A DNA stretch of 53,359 nt from Chloroflexota bacterium (GTDB lineage Bacteria; Chloroflexota; Anaerolineae; Anaerolineales; Villigracilaceae): assembly GCA_021414245.1 (NCBI GenBank), contig JAIOOU010000014.1, forward strand, positions 1 to 53,359. The letters are read 5' to 3'. The notes beneath the pieces were generated by a model, which was not told the DNA's origin, did not search any database, and saw only the letters and a list, made by a program, of their open reading frames with translations. Positions 18,870 to 28,557 of this stretch are shown piece by piece. The first letter of the stretch is position 1; each line of letters opens with the position of its first letter. The translations under genes and the position numbers were made by a program.

Positions 18870-19499
18870 TTATTTCCCGCAGGTAAATCGTGCCAATGCC
18901 TCTTCAAAGATCGGTCCGGCTGTTTCAGCCTGTGGCGTATATACCTTCCAGGCAAAGACACGGTCGCCGCAGGTCCATGCGCCTGAGCCGCCAAATGGCA
19001 GAACCGGGGTGGCGGTGGATGTGATGGCCGTATACATGACGTTCATGTTCCGAACGAGTTTTACCTGCAGACTGCCTTCACGGACATCTGTATTGTCGTC
19101 GAGGATCAGGTCCAGGGCGAATTCGGGGTCCGCGGCGCCGGGAGCGAGCTGCCAGATCACTTGAATGAACAGGTTGCCGTTGAGGGCGGCGATCAGCCCC
19201 TGCCCATAACTGCTTGGGGCGGCCGGGTTCTGCTGGGCACTGACATCGAAGAAGGCCAGGTCGATCGGATGTCCGATGCAAAACTGATATTCACAAAACA
19301 AGCCGGCCAGATTAAAGGGAGTCGGCGAGGGGTAGGGTGTGGATGCGGGGAAAGGGGTGGCTGTGGGAATTGCCGCAAGAGTGCCTGCCACCGCTCGGCG
19401 AATTAGCTCACTGGGGTTGGGAGTCGCTTTCGAGGTGCAGGAGGCCAGTAGAAGCAGAATCAGGCTGGCCGTTAAGAAAAGAAGCGATTGTTTTTTCAT
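18870..19499 (-). CDS. predicted lipoprotein of unknown function
   Basis: 209 residues from ATG 19499. MKKQSLLFLTASLILLLLAS then Cys is a lipoprotein signal peptide with the modified Cys at residue 21. A Thr/Pro-rich linker (TATPFPASTPYPSPTPF) follows, then a domain with four cysteines (two in CEYQFC, then two near the end) that may form disulfides. The family is not recognised. It lies downstream of the nitrite reductase gene but a strong terminator separates them. Confidence 0.8.
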   Translation of the reverse strand: MKKQSLLFLTASLILLLLASCTSKATPNPSELIRRAVAGTLAAIPTATPFPASTPYPSPTPFNLAGLFCEYQFCIGHPIDLAFFDVSAQQNPAAPSSYGQGLIAALNGNLFIQVIWQLAPGAADPEFALDLILDDNTDVREGSLQVKLVRNMNVMYTAITSTATPVLPFGGSGAWTCGDRVFAWKVYTPQAETAGPIFEEALARFTCGK

Positions 19500-19560: not shown

Positions 19561-21327
19561 CTAATGTCCGCTTCCTGCGGAGGGTGTGCCCAGGAAGATA
19601 TCGGGCGCATCCGGGCCTTCTACGATCAGATATCCGGCGAGCCCGCGTTGCAGCCTTGAGAGGGCGTGGTCCACCAAAATGTAGCGTCCCGGGACTTGAA
19701 GGTCGAACTCGACCACAGTGGCACCACCGGGAGGAACGATTGTGGTCTGCACGTCTGTAAGGGGAGCAGCGGTCAGCGAGGCCTGGTCGTACACTCTGTC
19801 GAAGATCTCACCGATCACATGGAAGGAGGAGGTCAGATTGGGTCCGCCCACTCCAAAGAAGATGCGTACGGTTTCGCCGACATTGGCTTTGAGGGGCTTT
19901 TGGGTGGTGAGGGAGCCAACTGCGCCATTGAAGACTACATATTCCGGGTCTTCGTTGAGCAGTTTGGTGATGTCGGTTGTCTGTCTGCCTTGTTCACCAA
20001 ATGCGCCTGTGGTGTAGATATCGCCCTGCATCACATAAAACTCGCGATCCACCCTGGGCAGGCCGCCTTCCGGCTCGACCAGAATGAGGCCGTACATGCC
20101 GTTGGAGATGTGATTGGCAACCATCGGGGTTGCACAATGATAAACGAAGAGTCCGGGATTAAGTGCTTTGGCAGTGAAAACACTTTCCTTGCCGGGTTCG
20201 GTCTGGGTCATGACTGCGCCGCCGCCAGGACCGGTTACGGCATGGAAATCAACCGAGTGATTCATGGTGCTGGTGGTGCTGTTCTTCATGTGGACTTCAA
20301 TGGTGTCGCCAACGCGCACACGGAAGAAAGGGCCGGGGACGGCACCGTTAAAGGTCCAGTATGTGAAGGTGGTGCCATCCGCGAGCTGGCCTTCGACTTC
20401 GACAGCTTCCAGGTCAATGCGGACGGTGGTGGGTTCGCGGACGCCAATGGGTGCGGGAAGGTCGGTTGGGTCCCGAACGATATCTGCGCCTGTGGCAGGG
20501 ACCGCTGCCGCGGCAGCCGCGGGGGCTTCACCATACGCGCCCGCAGGCAGGCTGCTAAGATATGTAACGATGGAGTTGACCTCGTCTGTGGTCAGGGTTT
20601 CTGATAAATTGGCGGGCATGACATTTGCTGCGCACGGTCCGGTGGGACAGGTGGGGGCGACGAAAGTATTCGGTTCAAGAATGGACTCGCGGATATAGTC
20701 CTCGGCGGTTTTTGCTTTTCCGGTGTACGAACCACTCTTAAAGTGCTCTTCTGCGGCAACATTCACATCGGTGAGGTTTGGAGCGATAACACCCGCTGCA
20801 TTGGGAATTCCGGCAATTGTATGGCAGCTGCCGCAGGCGCCTTTTTGAAAGGCGGCAAGAACCTGCGGGTCGCCGGAACCGGAACCCTGCGCAGCCGGCA
20901 TCGGGGATTGTGCAACATCGCTGACGACCAGGATGCCCTTCATCCCCAATTCCTTGTGATTTGCGACGCTGTCGTAATATTCCATTTGTCCGTGGGTGTT
21001 CGGAACGGTAAAAGTGACCGAGGTTTCCTCGCCCTTTTCTTTTACGATGCCCGTGCTGGCCTGAACTTCGGGGAAGGTGATATCATGCTGTCCCATTCCG
21101 CCGTTGATCAGTGTGATCGTGATCGTCTCGCCCGGCGCGGCGCTCAACGTGGGGTTGGCAATCCCGTTAATCTCGTCGCTGACGCCCAGAAAGACCAGAT
21201 TCCCGTCCTTCAGATCGGTGGTTAGGACATATTCCTTGCCGGCAATTTCGGATCTGGTTCCGGCGCAGGCTGCAATGAATACTGCTGCAATGACGGTGAG
21301 TCCCAAATAAGTGACTATTCTTTTCAT
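19561..21327 (-). CDS. nirK: cupredoxin-cytochrome c-copper nitrite reductase fusion (NirK type)
   Basis: 588 residues. Residues 1-20 are a lipoprotein signal with Cys21, so it is anchored outside the membrane. Domain 1 (30-137) is cupredoxin-like with H81, H124 and M129 but Asp119 where the copper Cys should be. Domain 2 (150-262) is cytochrome c: C165-x2-C168-H169, distal M237. Domain 3 (300-588) is NirK: type 1 copper H357, C398, H406, M411; type 2 copper H362, H397, H554; catalytic D360 and H503. NirK reduces nitrite to nitric oxide; the fused cytochrome c probably feeds electrons. The loop C398-H406 is one residue shorter than in classical NirK. Third gene of the crp operon. Confidence 0.92.
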   Translation of the reverse strand: MKRIVTYLGLTVIAAVFIAACAGTRSEIAGKEYVLTTDLKDGNLVFLGVSDEINGIANPTLSAAPGETITITLINGGMGQHDITFPEVQASTGIVKEKGEETSVTFTVPNTHGQMEYYDSVANHKELGMKGILVVSDVAQSPMPAAQGSGSGDPQVLAAFQKGACGSCHTIAGIPNAAGVIAPNLTDVNVAAEEHFKSGSYTGKAKTAEDYIRESILEPNTFVAPTCPTGPCAANVMPANLSETLTTDEVNSIVTYLSSLPAGAYGEAPAAAAAAVPATGADIVRDPTDLPAPIGVREPTTVRIDLEAVEVEGQLADGTTFTYWTFNGAVPGPFFRVRVGDTIEVHMKNSTTSTMNHSVDFHAVTGPGGGAVMTQTEPGKESVFTAKALNPGLFVYHCATPMVANHISNGMYGLILVEPEGGLPRVDREFYVMQGDIYTTGAFGEQGRQTTDITKLLNEDPEYVVFNGAVGSLTTQKPLKANVGETVRIFFGVGGPNLTSSFHVIGEIFDRVYDQASLTAAPLTDVQTTIVPPGGATVVEFDLQVPGRYILVDHALSRLQRGLAGYLIVEGPDAPDIFLGTPSAGSGH

Positions 21328-21339
21328 TTCATGCTCCTC

Positions 21340-21603
21340 TTAAAATTTTTGAACTTCAAGTTTGGCGAGATCTTCCATGAAGGCTTTCTCATCCAGATCA
21401 TAGGCAAGGATGACATCCTTAAGGGTGCAGAAACGTGCCAGGGAACAGATCGCGCAGGCTGTGCCGTGATCGATGAAGAACCTGACCGCTTGTGGAGTCG
21501 CCTGTAATAAATCCGCCGCACTGGTTTCCGAAATTGCCAAATTTTCGTTCATGATGACCACAGAATACAGCTTTTCCCCCAAATCGTCTTTGCGCTGGCG
21601 CAA
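21340..21603 (-). CDS. small DUF1858-like protein
   Basis: 87 residues from TTG 21603, which has GGAGA about 7 nt upstream inside the end of the crp gene; ATG 21552 (70 residues) lacks a ribosome site but is nearer the usual family start. The segment TSAADLLQATPQAVRFFIDH then GTACAICSLARFCTLKDVIL resembles the DUF1858/ScdA N-terminal fold (periodic Val-Leu pattern, Cys-x2-Cys, LxDv). Such domains accompany hybrid-cluster and NO-stress proteins. Lying between a Crp/Fnr regulator and NirK, a role in nitrogen-oxide handling is plausible. Confidence 0.7.
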   Translation of the reverse strand: MRQRKDDLGEKLYSVVIMNENLAISETSAADLLQATPQAVRFFIDHGTACAICSLARFCTLKDVILAYDLDEKAFMEDLAKLEVQKF

Positions 21604-21609
21604 ACAAGG

Positions 21610-22308
21610 TTATTTCTCCAAACCATCCGCAATACGAACAAGTTCGTGCGGTTTTAGGAGCGTGATCCGCTCCCGGCCGGTCTCAATAAAGCCTTTTCGT
21701 TCCCAGTCGCTGAGCAGCCGGCTGATGGTGTACAAGGTGGTCCCGGTCATTTCGGCGACATCCTGCCTGGAAAAGGTCAATTCGATGCCCGCTTCCTTCC
21801 TGGACTTGACGCCTGATTGCCCGGCCAGGCGAATCAGCGCGTTGGCCACTCTTTGCTCGACCCGTTCCGTGGCCAGTTCGCGATACCTTGCCTGCATTTC
21901 CTGAATGTAGGAGGTCATCAATGTCATTAAATCAAAAGCGATCTGTGGACTGGTTTCCAGTATTTTATGCAGGAAGCTGCTCTCAATGGCAAGCGCTGAA
22001 CTGTCCTCCATGGCCTGTGCTGTTGCGGGGTAGACAGCCTCTGCACGGACGGCTCCCAATGCGCCAAACATCTGCCAGGGATGGATGGTCCGCAGGTTTA
22101 CCTGCTGCCCGCTGGGATTGGATTGCATGAGTTTGACCTGTCCGCTGGTCAGAACATATAAATATTGTGCCGTGTCGCCTTGAAAAAAGAAGAATTCATT
22201 TTCTTCGACAGTACGGATGATGCTGTTTTTCAGGATATTCTGCAATTCATCCTCGGTTGCATTCTGAAAAACGATAACTTGCTTTAAATCCCTTGGCAAC
22301 AGGTCCAT
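21610..22308 (-). CDS. Crp/Fnr family transcriptional regulator
   Basis: 232 residues. Cyclic-nucleotide-binding-type barrel (about 10-125; ENEFFFFQGDTAQYLYVLTS, GQVKLMQ), a dimer helix, and a Crp HTH (about 170-225; TFSRQDVAEMTGTTLYTISR then LLSDWERKGFIE). There is not one Cys in the protein, so it cannot carry an FNR [4Fe-4S] cluster; sensing of NO through heme (DNR-like) or of a small molecule is possible. First gene of the operon with DUF1858 and nirK, so it probably controls them. TAAAAT lies 6 nt before the ATG with no Shine-Dalgarno. Confidence 0.92.
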   Translation of the reverse strand: MDLLPRDLKQVIVFQNATEDELQNILKNSIIRTVEENEFFFFQGDTAQYLYVLTSGQVKLMQSNPSGQQVNLRTIHPWQMFGALGAVRAEAVYPATAQAMEDSSALAIESSFLHKILETSPQIAFDLMTLMTSYIQEMQARYRELATERVEQRVANALIRLAGQSGVKSRKEAGIELTFSRQDVAEMTGTTLYTISRLLSDWERKGFIETGRERITLLKPHELVRIADGLEK

Positions 22309-22457: not shown

Positions 22458-23525
22458 ATGAAAAAGGCCTATGTAATATTGATTGGTATTTTCCTGCTGA
22501 CTGCCCTTGGCATTTTTGGCCTTCCGCTTTTTAAATCGCAGCAATTCCACGGTTCAGTGTTGCAGGAACCAAAACTGGCAGCCGAGATCGTATTGCGTTC
22601 GGCCGCCGGCCCGGTCCGGCTGAGCGATTATCGGGGCAGGATTGCCTTGTTATATTTTGGATATACATCCTGTCCCGATATTTGTCCGGCCTCATTGGCA
22701 AATTTGAAACTGGCGCTGGGCAACCTGTCACCCGAAGAATCTGCCCAGGTGCAGGTCATTTTTGTTTCGGTGGATCCCGGCCGGGATACCCCAGAAAAAC
22801 TGGGTCAGTATATCCGTTTGTTTGATGATGGGTTTATCGGGGCCACCGGAACCCGGGACGAAATTGATCTGATTACCAGTGCCTTTAATGTATACTATAA
22901 AATCAATCCTCCAGAATCAAATAATAATGATTATACGGTGGACCATTCGGGATTCATTACCGTGATCGACCGTGATGGTTATGTCATCATGAGCTGGCCG
23001 CACGGCACCCCGCCGGCGGATATGAGTGCCGACCTCAGATACCTGCTCAAGAACGGCATGCCGATCAGTGCGCAAATCCTGGCGGGCCCGACCTATACTC
23101 CGGTGGTATGTGCAGTGACTCTCGCCCCGGCGCATGTACAAGGCGGCGAGTGGCTGTATCAACATCACTGCGCGCAGTGCCATGGAGCCGATCTGGCCGG
23201 GAATTCCGCCTGGCAAACTGAATTAGTGGATGGGTCACACCTGCCTCCACCGCTCAACGGCGACGGCAAAGCCTGGCAGTATTCCGAACAGGATCTTATC
23301 AGGATCATCAAGGAAGGCCGTAATCTGGAAAAGCCCATTCATATGCCTGCCTTCAAAAATACGCTGGCGGATTGGGAGATCAGTTTTGTCCTGACCTATT
23401 TGAAAAGCAATTGGGACATCAATCAGCGCAACTATCAGCACGGATTCATGACGCTGACCCCCCAGGCGACTCCAACCTTGAGTGCGACTCCTTCCCCGAC
23501 CGTAACTGGCACGCTGCTTCCGTAA
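22458..23525 (+). CDS. SCO1/SenC copper chaperone fused to cytochrome c
   Basis: 355 residues. N-terminal membrane anchor (5-25), then a SCO domain with the copper site C72-PDI-C76 and H163 (VDHSGFITVI) in a thioredoxin fold. Cytochrome c follows: C238-AQ-C241-H242, with M296 (HMPAF) as likely axial ligand. A Thr/Pro-rich tail ends the protein. SCO proteins insert copper into CuA sites of cytochrome oxidase and sometimes other copper enzymes. Divergent from the crp-nirK operon and before copper genes, so copper delivery to NirK or to an oxidase is inferred. GAGGAA precedes the ATG. Confidence 0.92.
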   Translation: MKKAYVILIGIFLLTALGIFGLPLFKSQQFHGSVLQEPKLAAEIVLRSAAGPVRLSDYRGRIALLYFGYTSCPDICPASLANLKLALGNLSPEESAQVQVIFVSVDPGRDTPEKLGQYIRLFDDGFIGATGTRDEIDLITSAFNVYYKINPPESNNNDYTVDHSGFITVIDRDGYVIMSWPHGTPPADMSADLRYLLKNGMPISAQILAGPTYTPVVCAVTLAPAHVQGGEWLYQHHCAQCHGADLAGNSAWQTELVDGSHLPPPLNGDGKAWQYSEQDLIRIIKEGRNLEKPIHMPAFKNTLADWEISFVLTYLKSNWDINQRNYQHGFMTLTPQATPTLSATPSPTVTGTLLP

Positions 23526-23650: not shown

Positions 23651-23691
23651 AGAGAATTGGATGATGCCTTATCTGGAAGGTGGAGGTAACC

Positions 23692-23961
23692 ATGGAAAAC
23701 GATAGCACGATTCGAAGACTGAAGACCGTGGAAGGCCACCTGCGTGGTGTGATTCGCATGGTGGAGGAGGAGGCGTATTGCATTGACGTGATCCGTCAAA
23801 TCCAGGCTGTCGAAGCGGCCTTGAATAAGGTCAGTTCGCGTATTTTGGAGGACCACCTGAATTCCTGTGTGATCACCGCGATTCAGGGAAATGACAAAAA
23901 GGAACGCGAGCGCGTGCTCAAGGAAATCACGGAAGTTTTTGAAATGTCCACCAAGGTTTAA
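23692..23961 (+). CDS. csoR: CsoR-family copper-sensing repressor
   Basis: 89 residues from ATG 23692, with GGAGG close upstream. The all-helical DUF156 fold is seen in TIRRLKTVEGHLRGVIRMVE and IDVIRQIQAVEAALNKVSSR. The Cu(I) ligand set C30, H55, C59 is complete, which favours copper over nickel/cobalt (RcnR) or sulfide sensing. Copper binding releases DNA. It heads the operon with copZ, copA and probably further genes to 28784. Confidence 0.93.
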   Translation: MENDSTIRRLKTVEGHLRGVIRMVEEEAYCIDVIRQIQAVEAALNKVSSRILEDHLNSCVITAIQGNDKKERERVLKEITEVFEMSTKV

Positions 23962-24034: not shown

Positions 24035-24253
24035 ATGACCACAGTAACTTATACCGTCCCCGCAATTTCCTGCGGACATTGCACCCATACGATCGAGACT
24101 GAAGTTGGGGAGCTCCTGGGCGTTCAATCCGTCAAGGCGGATGAGGCCTCCAAGAAGGTGGAGATCACATTTGACGCCCCGGCAAATGAAACCGTCATTA
24201 AGGCTTTGCTGGCTGAGATCAATTACCCGGCCGAGGGCCTGATCACCTTGTAA
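24035..24253 (+). CDS. copZ: copper chaperone, HMA domain (CopZ-like)
   Basis: 72 residues from ATG 24035 after AAGGAGAAATCAAATC. One HMA fold: YTVPAISCGHCTHTIETEVG has the C-x2-C metal site (C13, C16), with His between as in CGHC chaperones. It ferries Cu(I) in the cytoplasm to CopA or CsoR. Between csoR and copA, the usual order. Confidence 0.93.
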   Translation: MTTVTYTVPAISCGHCTHTIETEVGELLGVQSVKADEASKKVEITFDAPANETVIKALLAEINYPAEGLITL

Positions 24254-24303: not shown

Positions 24304-26757
24304 ATGAGTGATACGAAACAATTAACTCTTCCAATTACCGGAATGACCTGTGCGAACTGCGTTGCCACAGTGGAACGCAATTTGAAGAGGCTGGATGGGG
24401 TGAATAGCGCGGTGGTGAACCTGTCCTCGGAACGTGCGACCGTTGACTTTGATGCCGCCAAACTTGGTCTGTCCGAGGTCATAGCCCGCGTGAATCGTGC
24501 CGGATATGGCGTGGCCACCGGTGAAGCGGATTTGATCATCAAGCGCTTGTCTGATGACAACGATGCCCGCCGGTTGGAAAAAGCGCTTGCCAGGCTCGAA
24601 GGTGTGCTGGAAGCTCAGGTGACCTTCACCACGGAAAAAGCGCGGGTGAAATACATTCCCACGATCGTCACACAGGCGGAACTTCGTCGCGCGGTGGCTT
24701 CGGCTGGGTTTGAAGCCTTGGAACTTGGCGGCGAGGCCGAGGATGCGGAAGCACAGGCGCGCGAACATGAGATCAATGAACAGCGCCGTTTGTTGATCAT
24801 TGGTTTAATTTTCACAGTACCGCTCTTCCTGCTTTCCATGGGCAAGGACTTCAACCTGCTGCCCGCTTTTGTATATTCCAGTAACGCCATGGATGGGATG
24901 CGCGAGGCACAGCCCTGGTTTGGCTGGTTAATGCTGGTGCTGGCGCTGCCGGTTCAATTCTACGTGGGCTGGCAATACTATGTGGGTGCGTTCAAGGCCT
25001 TGCGAAACCGTTCCGCGAACATGGATGTCCTGATCGTGATGGGATCCTCGGCTGCATTCTTTTATTCCCTGCCGATCACCTTTGATCTGTTGATGGGTCA
25101 TGTCTATTATGAAACAGCTGCGGTCATCATTACACTCATCAAACTGGGTAAATTTCTGGAGGCGCGTGCCAAGGGCCGCACCTCCGAGGCGATCAAGAAA
25201 TTAATGGGATTGAGGGCAAAGACAGCCCGCATCATTCGTGACGGGGTGGAGGCTGAGGTGCCCGCGGACGATGTGCGTGTGGGCGACATTGTGATCGTGA
25301 GACCGGGCGAGAAGATCCCGGTGGACGGAGTGGTGGTGGACGGTAGAAGTGCCATCGACGAATCCATGCTGACGGGCGAGTCTCTGCCCGTGGAAAAAAA
25401 ACCCGGTGACGTGGTCATCGGTGCCACCCTCAATAAACTGGGCATGCTGAGGTTCGAAGCTACAAAGGTCGGCAGGGAAACTGCCCTGGCACAAATCGTA
25501 AAACTGGTGGAGGATGCGCAGGGCAGCAAGGCTCCCATTCAAAAGCTGGCGGATCAGGTCTCAGCCATATTTGTACCGATCGTGATCGGCATTGCCGCCC
25601 TGACCTTTGCAGGCTGGTATTTCCTTGGACCAACCCTGCCGATTAATTCCGATATTGATAATTTCACACGCGCCCTGATTTATATGGTGGCCGTGTTAGT
25701 GATCGCCTGTCCGTGTGCGATGGGTCTGGCCACTCCGACTGCAATCATGGTAGGCACCGGCAAGGGCGCAGAAGTGGGCATCCTCTTCCGCAACAGCGAG
25801 GCCCTCGAGCGGGCCGGCAACGTAAGCGTGGTCATCCTGGATAAGACCGGGACCATCACCAAGGGACAACCGGCAGTGACCGATATCGTCACAGGCGGAA
25901 AATACGACGGCGATGAAGTATTGCGCCTGGCTGCCTCGGTTGAAAAAGGCAGTGAACATCCGTTGGGAGAGTCCATCTGGGCCGAGGCCACGACTCGCGG
26001 ATTGATTTTGGTGGAACCCACCGGTTTTAAAGCAGAGGCCGGGCATGGCGTGCAGGCCGAGGTCGGGGGAAGAAGCGTGATCGTCGGGAATGTGAGAATG
26101 TTCCAGACACGCGGAATCCAATTGGGAAATCTTGCGTCTGAAGTTTCGCGTTTGCAGTCCGAGGCAAAAACCGCGATGCTGGTCGCAATTGATAATGAAG
26201 CCGCCGGGGTCATTGCCGTGGCGGATACGATCAAGGAAAGTTCAAAGGATGCGATAGCGGACCTTCACAAAATGGGATTGAAGGTCGCCATGATCACCGG
26301 TGATAACCAAAAGACCGCGGACGCGATCGCGAAACAAGTGGGTGTGGATACCGTACTGGCAGAAGTGTTACCTGAGGGAAAATCCGCCGAGGTTAAGAAA
26401 CTGCAAGCCGGCAGTGTAGTGGTTGCCATGGTGGGTGACGGGGTGAACGATGCCCCTGCCCTCGCACAGGCGGACGTTGGCCTAGCGATCGGCACCGGTA
26501 CGGATGTGGCCATGGCGGCTGCACCCGTGACCCTGATGAGCGGTGACCTGCGCGGAGTTGCGCGGGCGATCAATCTTTCACGTAAGACATTGGGAACGAT
26601 CAAACAAAACCTGTTCTGGGCGTTTTTCTATAATGTGGTTCTGATTCCTGCCGCAGCGCTTGGATATTTGAATCCCATGCTGGCAGCCGGTGCGATGGCC
26701 TTTAGCAGTGTGTTCGTTGTGACGAATAGCCTGCGTCTGCGCGGCCAGAAAATATAA
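24304..26757 (+). CDS. copA: copper-translocating P1B-type ATPase
   Basis: 817 residues. The first HMA domain has MTCANC (C16, C19); a second HMA-like repeat (about 75-140) has lost its CxxC. Eight membrane helices are expected; the transport motif C469-P-C471 lies in helix 6. TGES (actuator), D513-KTGT (phosphorylation), SEHPLGES and [10 protein letters not shown] are all present. CPC marks a Cu(I)/Ag(I) exporter. ATP-driven efflux protects the cytoplasm and can load extracytoplasmic copper enzymes such as the NirK nearby. Confidence 0.95.
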
Positions 26758-27357: not shown

Positions 27358-28557
27358 ATGTCAAAACAGCAGCAGAAGAAGAACACTTTAAATCCGGTCA
27401 TGATTGTATCTTTGGGCGTGGTCTTCGTCGCGATTGCCCTGGTTCTGCTCGTGCTAAAACCGGGCGTACAGTCCCAGGTTTTGAGCACGGGTTCGGGCAC
27501 ATGGAGTCAACTTGTGGTGGCGTTCATCACGGGCATCACCACCGGTGGATTAAGCTGCCTGGCGGTCCAGGGTGGTTTGCTGGCAAGCTCACTCGCACAT
27601 CAAATTGAACAGGATTATGTTGGACAAAATGCGAACAGAAAACAAAGACAAAATGTCGCAGTCCGGCCCAATTCCGCCTTCCCGATCTTCCTTTTCCTGA
27701 TCGCCAAACTGGTTGCCTATACTTTGCTGGGCGCCCTGCTGGGCTGGCTTGGCTCTTATTTGACGCTCAGCCCAATGACGCGCGCCATGCTCATGATCGC
27801 GATCGGCATTTTTATGATCGGGAATGCGCTGCGCATGTTCAATGTGCATCCCATCTTTCGTTACTTCTCGATCGAGCCGCCCAAATTCATCACCCGCTAT
27901 ATCCGGCGCACCGCCAAGGGCACCGACATGTTTACGCCACTCTTCCTTGGTGCACTCACGGTCTTCATTCCCTGCGGTGTGACACAAGCCATGATGGCCA
28001 CTGCGCTTGGCACGGGCAGCGCCGCGATTGGTGCTGCGCTCATGTTTGCTTTTATCCTTGGGACCAGTCCGGTCTTTTTCATCGTGGCTTATTTGACGAC
28101 GGAACTTGGGGCAAAACTCGAAAAATTTTTTATGCGATTTGTGGCGGTTGTATTGCTGGTTTTGGGATTTGTCACTCTGGACGGGGGACTCAATGTATTG
28201 GGCTCTCCCTTCTCGTTTCAAAACCTGACCCGCTCGCTGTTCCCCTCCGAAAGCAGTTCTGTGTCTGCGGCTCCTCTGGTTCTTGCTGTCGAAGGGGAAT
28301 TGACTCTGCAAGTCCGGAACGATGGATATTTCCCGGTCAGTTTGAAGGCGCCCGCAGACAAGGCCTTTACGCTCAATCTTGTCACTGATCAAACCTATTC
28401 CTGTGCCCGGGATTTTGTCATCCCTGCACTGGATTACTATCAACTGCTTCCGGATACAGGCACTGTGCAGGTTAACATCCCCGCTCAGAAACCGGGTTCG
28501 ACCCTGTTTTTTACCTGTTCGATGGGAATGTACACCGGGCAGATCGTTTTTGAATAA
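27358..28557 (+). CDS. TauE/SafE-like membrane protein with C-terminal cupredoxin-like domain
   Basis: 399 residues. About seven membrane segments; GLSCLAVQGG (near 65) and FIPCGVTQAMMATALGTGSA (near 205) place conserved Cys in helices, as in SafE/CcdA-like transporters. From about 300, outside the membrane, a beta-rich domain ends with SCARDFVIP and FFTCSMGMYTGQIVFE. That Cys-Ser-Met-Gly-Met pattern could hold copper as in cupredoxins. No Shine-Dalgarno stands out. Placed among copper genes and followed 14 nt later by an HMA chaperone, so copper transport or assembly is likely; substrate direction is unknown. Confidence 0.82.
   Translation: MSKQQQKKNTLNPVMIVSLGVVFVAIALVLLVLKPGVQSQVLSTGSGTWSQLVVAFITGITTGGLSCLAVQGGLLASSLAHQIEQDYVGQNANRKQRQNVAVRPNSAFPIFLFLIAKLVAYTLLGALLGWLGSYLTLSPMTRAMLMIAIGIFMIGNALRMFNVHPIFRYFSIEPPKFITRYIRRTAKGTDMFTPLFLGALTVFIPCGVTQAMMATALGTGSAAIGAALMFAFILGTSPVFFIVAYLTTELGAKLEKFFMRFVAVVLLVLGFVTLDGGLNVLGSPFSFQNLTRSLFPSESSSVSAAPLVLAVEGELTLQVRNDGYFPVSLKAPADKAFTLNLVTDQTYSCARDFVIPALDYYQLLPDTGTVQVNIPAQKPGSTLFFTCSMGMYTGQIVFE

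Follow-up and report, generated by a model that had tools for sequence, protein, structure and literature searches.

A cupredoxin-cytochrome c-NirK fusion with aspartate at the type-1 copper cysteine position of its N-terminal domain in a genus of Anaerolineales

Electron feeding of CuNiRs by tethered domains is debated. According to the available text of PMC7201279, the heme lies ca. 10 Å from the type-1 (T1) copper in RpNiR and PhNiR, and the corresponding distances are ca. 14 Å in TsNiR and, from the tethered to the core T1 copper, ca. 24 Å in the Hyphomicrobium denitrificans enzyme HdNiR; tethering is said there to play a more complex role. The available text of PMC13324648 describes tethered CuNiRs as less active than two-domain ones and the role of tethered donors as debatable. 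From Chloroflexi, Schwartz et al. (2022) described a cupredoxin-C1-NirK ORF in a few MAGs, where the ORFs were identical and an artefact was suspected (PMC8756737, as far as its text is available). Beyond that report, the cupredoxin-heme-NirK order was not found in the open-licence literature searched.

The window, i.e. the whole stretch of 53,359 nucleotides analysed here (contig JAIOOU010000014.1, Chloroflexota), contains a gene of this kind on the minus strand, whereas the plus strand is not open over the same positions. From N- to C-terminus, the encoded protein consists of a lipoprotein signal, a cupredoxin-like domain, a cytochrome c domain (C1) and a NirK core. Cupredoxins with Asp at the Cys position are named cupD in the following, and Cys-bearing cupredoxins cupC.

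19561..21327, minus strand: cupD-C1-NirK fusion gene, 588 aa in a single open frame
21265..21327, minus strand: signal peptide and lipobox, residues 1-21, with Cys21 as predicted lipid anchor (sequence)
20908..21246, minus strand: cupD, residues 28-140, without the type-1 Cys (sequence match, alignment, AlphaFold)
20971..20973, minus strand: codon of Asp119, the residue that stands in for the type-1 copper Cys (alignment)
20509..20874, minus strand: C1, cytochrome c domain of class-I type including its flanks, residues 152-273 (alignment, Pfam)
20821..20835, minus strand: CGSCH heme-binding motif, residues 165-169 (sequence)
20617..20619, minus strand: Met237 codon; the residue is a candidate for the distal heme ligand, the alignment column being Met in all 45 C1 domains
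19594..20481, minus strand: NirK core, residues 283-578, with complete T1 and T2 copper sites (TIGR02376, alignments)

The first-pass annotation had read a signal Cys and a single chain of 588 residues from this gene, and both readings hold. The frame is uninterrupted, with the heme domain immediately N-terminal to the core, and the lipobox is IAAC (residues 18-21), ending in Cys21; a motif of this kind occurs in all 20 proteins of the same domain order (class I, see below), and as a lipoprotein anchor motif it is consistent with a membrane-anchored enzyme. The earlier count of three domains, in turn, becomes four by the field's counting, because the NirK core alone comprises two cupredoxin domains.

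The core scored 332.2 bits with TIGR02376 over residues 283-578, above the curated cut-off of 296.3. The copper sites, previously called complete, are indeed so: the T1 ligands H357, C398, H406 and M411, the T2 ligands H362, H397 and H554, and the catalytic residues D360, H503 and I505 are all present, with roles that we take to be those of their homologues in known NirK. These ten positions were invariant in a 28-row alignment and in 55 of 55 cores, a count from which, as from the core tree, one gene cut by a contig end (G415) is left out. The core is an intact class II-type NirK. The closest solved structures, by both sequence and fold, are HdNiR (2dv6, 6tfd, 6tfo) and the core of the Bradyrhizobium four-domain enzyme (6the).

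The CxxCH cytochrome c proposed earlier was likewise recovered, on the basis of CGSCH at 165-169, the candidate axial ligand Met237, and a Pfam Cytochrom_C score of 25.1 bits for C1 alone (cut-off 21.3). The CxxCH motif, the Met and two further Cys are kept in all 45 C1 domains compared, and the NirK chain accordingly includes a covalently joined cytochrome c domain of class I type. In the AlphaFold model of the full chain (mean pLDDT 80.3, pTM 0.55), cupD and the core were mostly at ca. 90 or above and C1 was of low confidence, with pLDDT 42-79 within the chain and 62.7 when modelled alone; a Foldseek search with this low-confidence model of C1 alone gave no significant match.

The N-terminal cupredoxin of the first-pass annotation stands as a cupredoxin-like domain, but not as a blue-copper domain. 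Its relation to cupredoxins is seen in a 57.5-bit stretch to the cupredoxin domain of HdNiR and in a Foldseek match spanning cupD, which was modelled with pLDDT of ca. 89-97 over residues 31-130; against Pfam, cupD alone reached 18.9 bits, below the cut-off of 21.2. The Cys thiolate ligand of type-1 copper is absent. In the window its place is taken by Asp119 within YYDSVANHKELGM (a Cys-bearing counterpart is, e.g., YYCSIPGHRQAGM), and Asp replaces the Cys in 51 of 51 cupD domains, NirK- and NirS-fused alike. These 51 rows, which exclude the Cys-bearing cupredoxins L216 and L217, represent 49 distinct sequences, and a further pair (L013/L233) seems to be one record. With the type-1 Cys missing throughout, cupD as an ordinary blue-copper relay was ruled out. 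At the other site positions, the first His was present in 48, the second His in 37 and the Met in 50 of the 51 domains, and the H/D/H/M set (His80, Asp119, His124 and Met129 in the window) was complete in 19 of 20 class I cupD.

The invariant Asp is the unexpected feature of cupD. It occupies one of only 13 columns, out of 113, that are conserved at 98% or more, while pairwise identity between cupD domains goes down to 32%, and it is encoded by GAC in 27 and by GAT in 6 of 33 cupD rows. Since the residue is invariant at such low identity and both Asp codons are used, this looks like selection for Asp and not like decay. In all 51 cases cupD is followed by either C1 or a Cys-bearing cupredoxin. 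A presumably copper-less cupredoxin is retained at the outer end of many chains.

The distribution of domain orders was surveyed by search and frame analysis in 57 genomes of the window's genus. Class I (cupD-C1-NirK) was found in 20 genomes, about a third, and the 19 other class I proteins were 67-81% identical to that of the window. Class II (C1-NirK without the cupredoxin) was present in eight genomes, with one more gene truncated at the end of its contig, class III (cupD-cupC-NirK) in seven, and class IV (cupC-NirK) in one. Five genomes gave no match of any kind, the rest having fragments, core-type NirK, NirS fusions, or distant multicopper and cytochrome matches. The class count leaves out the fragments of G438 and G424, and classes I-IV also leave out G325, G420, G421 and the second nirK copies of G400, G402 and G417 (51-56% identity, core-type).

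The first-pass annotation had made its reading depend on homologues sharing the domain order, which those 20 genus genomes do, and had looked for the order across Chloroflexota, where it is not general: the full-chain matches listed for 400 sampled genomes of the phylum came from three genomes of a single genus, namely the window's own, G372 and G046. The cupD profile, with matches to cupC included, matched 86 of 400 genomes from the order. No class I gene outside the genus was present among 20 examined cupD-profile loci of those listed, a set that excludes the strong matches G755:C1 and G605. The loci examined outside the genus carried class III, cupD-C1-C2-NirS, two cupD-C1 pieces and two Cys-bearing cupredoxins. 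In total, cupD preceded C1 in 11 examined NirS fusion genes. One locus (L215:992-3360) has cupD-C1 and C2-NirS in two overlapping frames of the same strand; the gene is either split or frameshifted.

NirK and NirS are commonly regarded as mutually exclusive. Strong NirS matches (>400 bits) occurred in 11 of the 57 genus genomes, eight of which also had a NirK of class I, II or III. In G437 and G403 (L170:5463-9467 and L171:7733-11732), class I nirK is followed immediately downstream, in the same orientation, by a C1-C2-NirS gene with a cytochrome d1 match of 413 bits.

The surroundings of the gene are shared with most of the 19 other class I loci, the cases of absence including short contigs:

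18870..19499, minus strand: gene downstream of nirK for a lipoprotein of unknown family, putative start MKKQS (adjacent to nirK at 16 of 19 loci)
21340..21552, minus strand: small Cys-containing protein of the hybrid-cluster-protein-associated domain type, putative ATG start (19 of 19)
21610..22308, minus strand: Crp/Fnr-type regulator without Cys (family match; 18 of 19)
23680..23961, plus strand: CsoR-type copper repressor (family match; 18 of 19)
24035..24253, plus strand: CopZ-type copper chaperone, putative start (family match; 17 of 19)
24304..26757, plus strand: CopA-type copper ATPase (family match; 17 of 19)

The lipoprotein, for which no Pfam family was found, is a possible partner of the enzyme. 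The small Cys protein scored 35.9 bits with TIGR03980, below the cut-off of 45, and the Crp/Fnr-type regulator likely responds to NO or nitrite. Between the latter and csoR, positions 22458-23525 of the window encode a fusion of a SCO1-like domain with a cytochrome c one; of the other 19 class I loci, a single one gave a match to it, which was weak (78 bits). Within the copper gene cluster, positions 27358-28557 encode a membrane protein of the DsbD_2 type whose C-terminal domain is cupredoxin-like.

In a tree of the cores (55 rows), the class III sequences grouped as a single clade (100/100) and those of classes I and II were intermixed, the clade joining these two being weak (87/18). Well-supported branches force at least three changes each for classes I and II, and gain or loss of cupD on C1-NirK must therefore have occurred more than once. 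The tree of C1 domains (45 rows) split the C1 of NirK from that of NirS (98/95). In the cupredoxin tree (60 rows), one branch separated 33 cupD from 27 cupC (100/100), and of two NirS-borne cupD, one grouped with class I and the other with class III. A tie between the first Cys-to-Asp change and the insertion of the cytochrome was rejected, because cupD also precedes intact cupredoxins in class III as well as NirS, and all cupD form one clade. In two class III genes (L231:2671-4512 and L232:2751-4781), the blue-copper loop of cupD is whole (YMDSVPGHAEAGM) save for the change of Cys to Asp, and these likely represent an early form of the cupD clade.

The genome G224, of a sister genus, has cupC-NirK within the window's gene order of rpsI, MazG, lipoprotein, nirK, small Cys protein, Crp/Fnr, CsoR, CopZ and CopA. 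The other two class IV loci examined in the sister genus (L177, L130) did not share this order, and no CsoR neighbour was present at the seven class III loci. As judged from sequences and trees, C1 and an intact cupredoxin would be alternatives in the slot immediately before the NirK core, and the simplest history would be an exchange of this pre-core domain, taking place partly at one locus. For the invariant Asp and the donor-slot exchange, no description was found within the same open-licence scope. The genus thus offers a natural experiment, in which related cores are combined with C1 behind cupD, with C1 alone, or with an intact cupredoxin, and this suggests that electrons are donated by whichever domain adjoins the core on its N-terminal side, the outer domain having another function.

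On the whole, the gene probably encodes a membrane-anchored, self-contained nitrite reductase in which C1 serves as donor to the core and cupD as a non-blue scaffold or docking module. C1, and not cupD, is the constant donor candidate, because eight class II genes keep C1 without cupD. Electron delivery is assigned to C1 because its heme ligation is complete in every C1 domain compared and because it swaps with an intact cupredoxin in the same slot. The built-in cytochrome donor of the first-pass annotation, with C1 present in every class I and class II NirK, therefore remains the best inference. The NirK part would form the usual trimer, a membrane-side donor would reduce the C1 heme, and the heme would pass the electron to the T1 copper of the core, from where the type-2 copper would reduce nitrite to NO. 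cupD, in turn, might hold the donor domain off the membrane or bind a partner common to NirK and NirS.

An unlikely alternative is that C1 is no donor, but a regulator or an NO- or nitrite-responsive lock, the enzyme serving detoxification or signalling and not respiration. More complex roles of tethered domains have been reported in the available texts of PMC13324648 and PMC7201279. In the window's genome, which is 98% complete, neither a heme-copper NO reductase nor Hcp was found, cytochrome d1 (NirS) had no match, and NarG and the NosZ of TIGR04246 had none over the cut-off; its one heme-copper oxidase over the cut-off has an HPxVY motif, presumably of oxidase type. With NO reductase, NirS and this NosZ all missing from the matches, no denitrification chain is apparent, which together with the presence of NrfA speaks for such a role. 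NrfA is strong (449 bits), an enzyme also able to reduce NO, and may be the sink for NO. It is plausible from this gene content that the organism reduces nitrite to NO, as the first-pass annotation had suggested, and does so without a classical NO reductase. Against the role as regulator or lock stand the complete heme ligands in 45 of 45 C1 domains and the intact cupredoxin that fills the same slot elsewhere, both of which argue for electron delivery.

Two further loci of this genome were noted. A second NirK-like protein (G000:C1:424986-425720, L002) is a two-domain multicopper protein of 345 aa with a Tat-like start. An 896-codon frame (G000:C4, L003) was rejected as a C1-C2-NirS gene, as it has an internal stop and the genome is without a cytochrome d1 match.

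It is also rather unlikely that cupD binds copper or another metal via His80, Asp119, His124 and Met129 and relays membrane-side electrons to C1, as a natural counterpart of C112D azurin. That variant is a studied, copper-binding one with a crystal structure (PMC8915257), and in cupD the Asp is fixed while adjacent positions vary, all four residues are kept in 19 of 20 class I proteins, and copper genes lie beside the cupD-C1-NirK locus. The same source, however, in its available text requires ligation by C112 and M121 for functional electron flow. Moreover, conservation of the metal site does not extend over the whole clade, because over all cupD the second His is found in only 37 and the first in 48 of 51 domains, and in class II cupD is lost when C1 is retained. 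A still broader proposal, which we regard as improbable, makes cupD a new kind of cupredoxin: the change from Cys to an invariant Asp would have preceded its spread over NirK and NirS, and a natural His/Asp/His/Met copper site like that of engineered C112D azurin would have a shared role in nitrite reduction of Anaerolineales, as redox relay, in copper delivery to the neighbouring enzyme, or in docking to one membrane donor.

That the fusion arose by misassembly or faulty gene prediction, a possibility that Schwartz et al. considered for their few MAGs with identical ORFs (PMC8756737, available text), has a negligible probability and was ruled out by 20 species-level genomes with stop-free open frames of 592-658 codons, by the 67-81% identity to the window's protein, by conserved synteny beside copper-homeostasis genes, and by class I genes on long contigs (4.74 Mb in G403, 1.16 Mb in G046). 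The architecture has been known since 2022, and the doubt attached to it is cleared here, because the surroundings are conserved, the identities are spread and the contigs are long. The window's gene is a real, heritable four-domain heme-CuNiR variant within one genus of Anaerolineales. This bears on the calling of nirK in wastewater Chloroflexota, and the genus provides an evolutionary series for domain-swap enzymology.

Among the described systems, the Chloroflexi ORF of Schwartz et al. resembles that of the window in having an N-terminal cupredoxin/plastocyanin, a C1 cytochrome and NirK in this order; the available text of that paper (PMC8756737) deals mainly with C1-C2-NirS, suspects an artefact and passes over the missing Cys. 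The Chloroflexi C1-C2-NirS fusions themselves (PMC8756737, in part) have a homologous C1, and the same cupD ahead of it in the 11 examined genes, but their catalytic part is cytochrome cd1 and their C1 falls into a separate clade (98/95). RpNiR and PhNiR (3ziy, 2zoo) share with the window a tethered cytochrome c as donor candidate (available texts of PMC13324648 and PMC7201279), and their core is 53% identical to the window's; their cytochrome is C-terminal to the core, whereas that of the window is N-terminal. The four-domain CuNiR of Bradyrhizobium sp. ORS 375 likewise has one heme domain and one cupredoxin added (PMC7775769, in part), and its core (6the) is 65% identical to the window's, with an rmsd of 1.3 over 298 columns. 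Its order is heme-cupredoxin-NirK (title of 6the; L027, L022) with a Cys in the cupredoxin, whereas the window has cupredoxin-heme-NirK with Asp, and so does not belong to the Bradyrhizobium type. HdNiR (2dv6, 6tfd, 6tfo) is the best full-length match in both sequence and fold, and has an N-terminal cupredoxin tether as in the window (PMC7201279, available text). As described there, however, HdNiR is without a cytochrome and its tethered cupredoxin holds a T1 copper. The window's protein is thus not of the HdNiR type, in which a blue cupredoxin directly precedes the core: here C1 intervenes, and the cupredoxin has Asp in place of the Cys.
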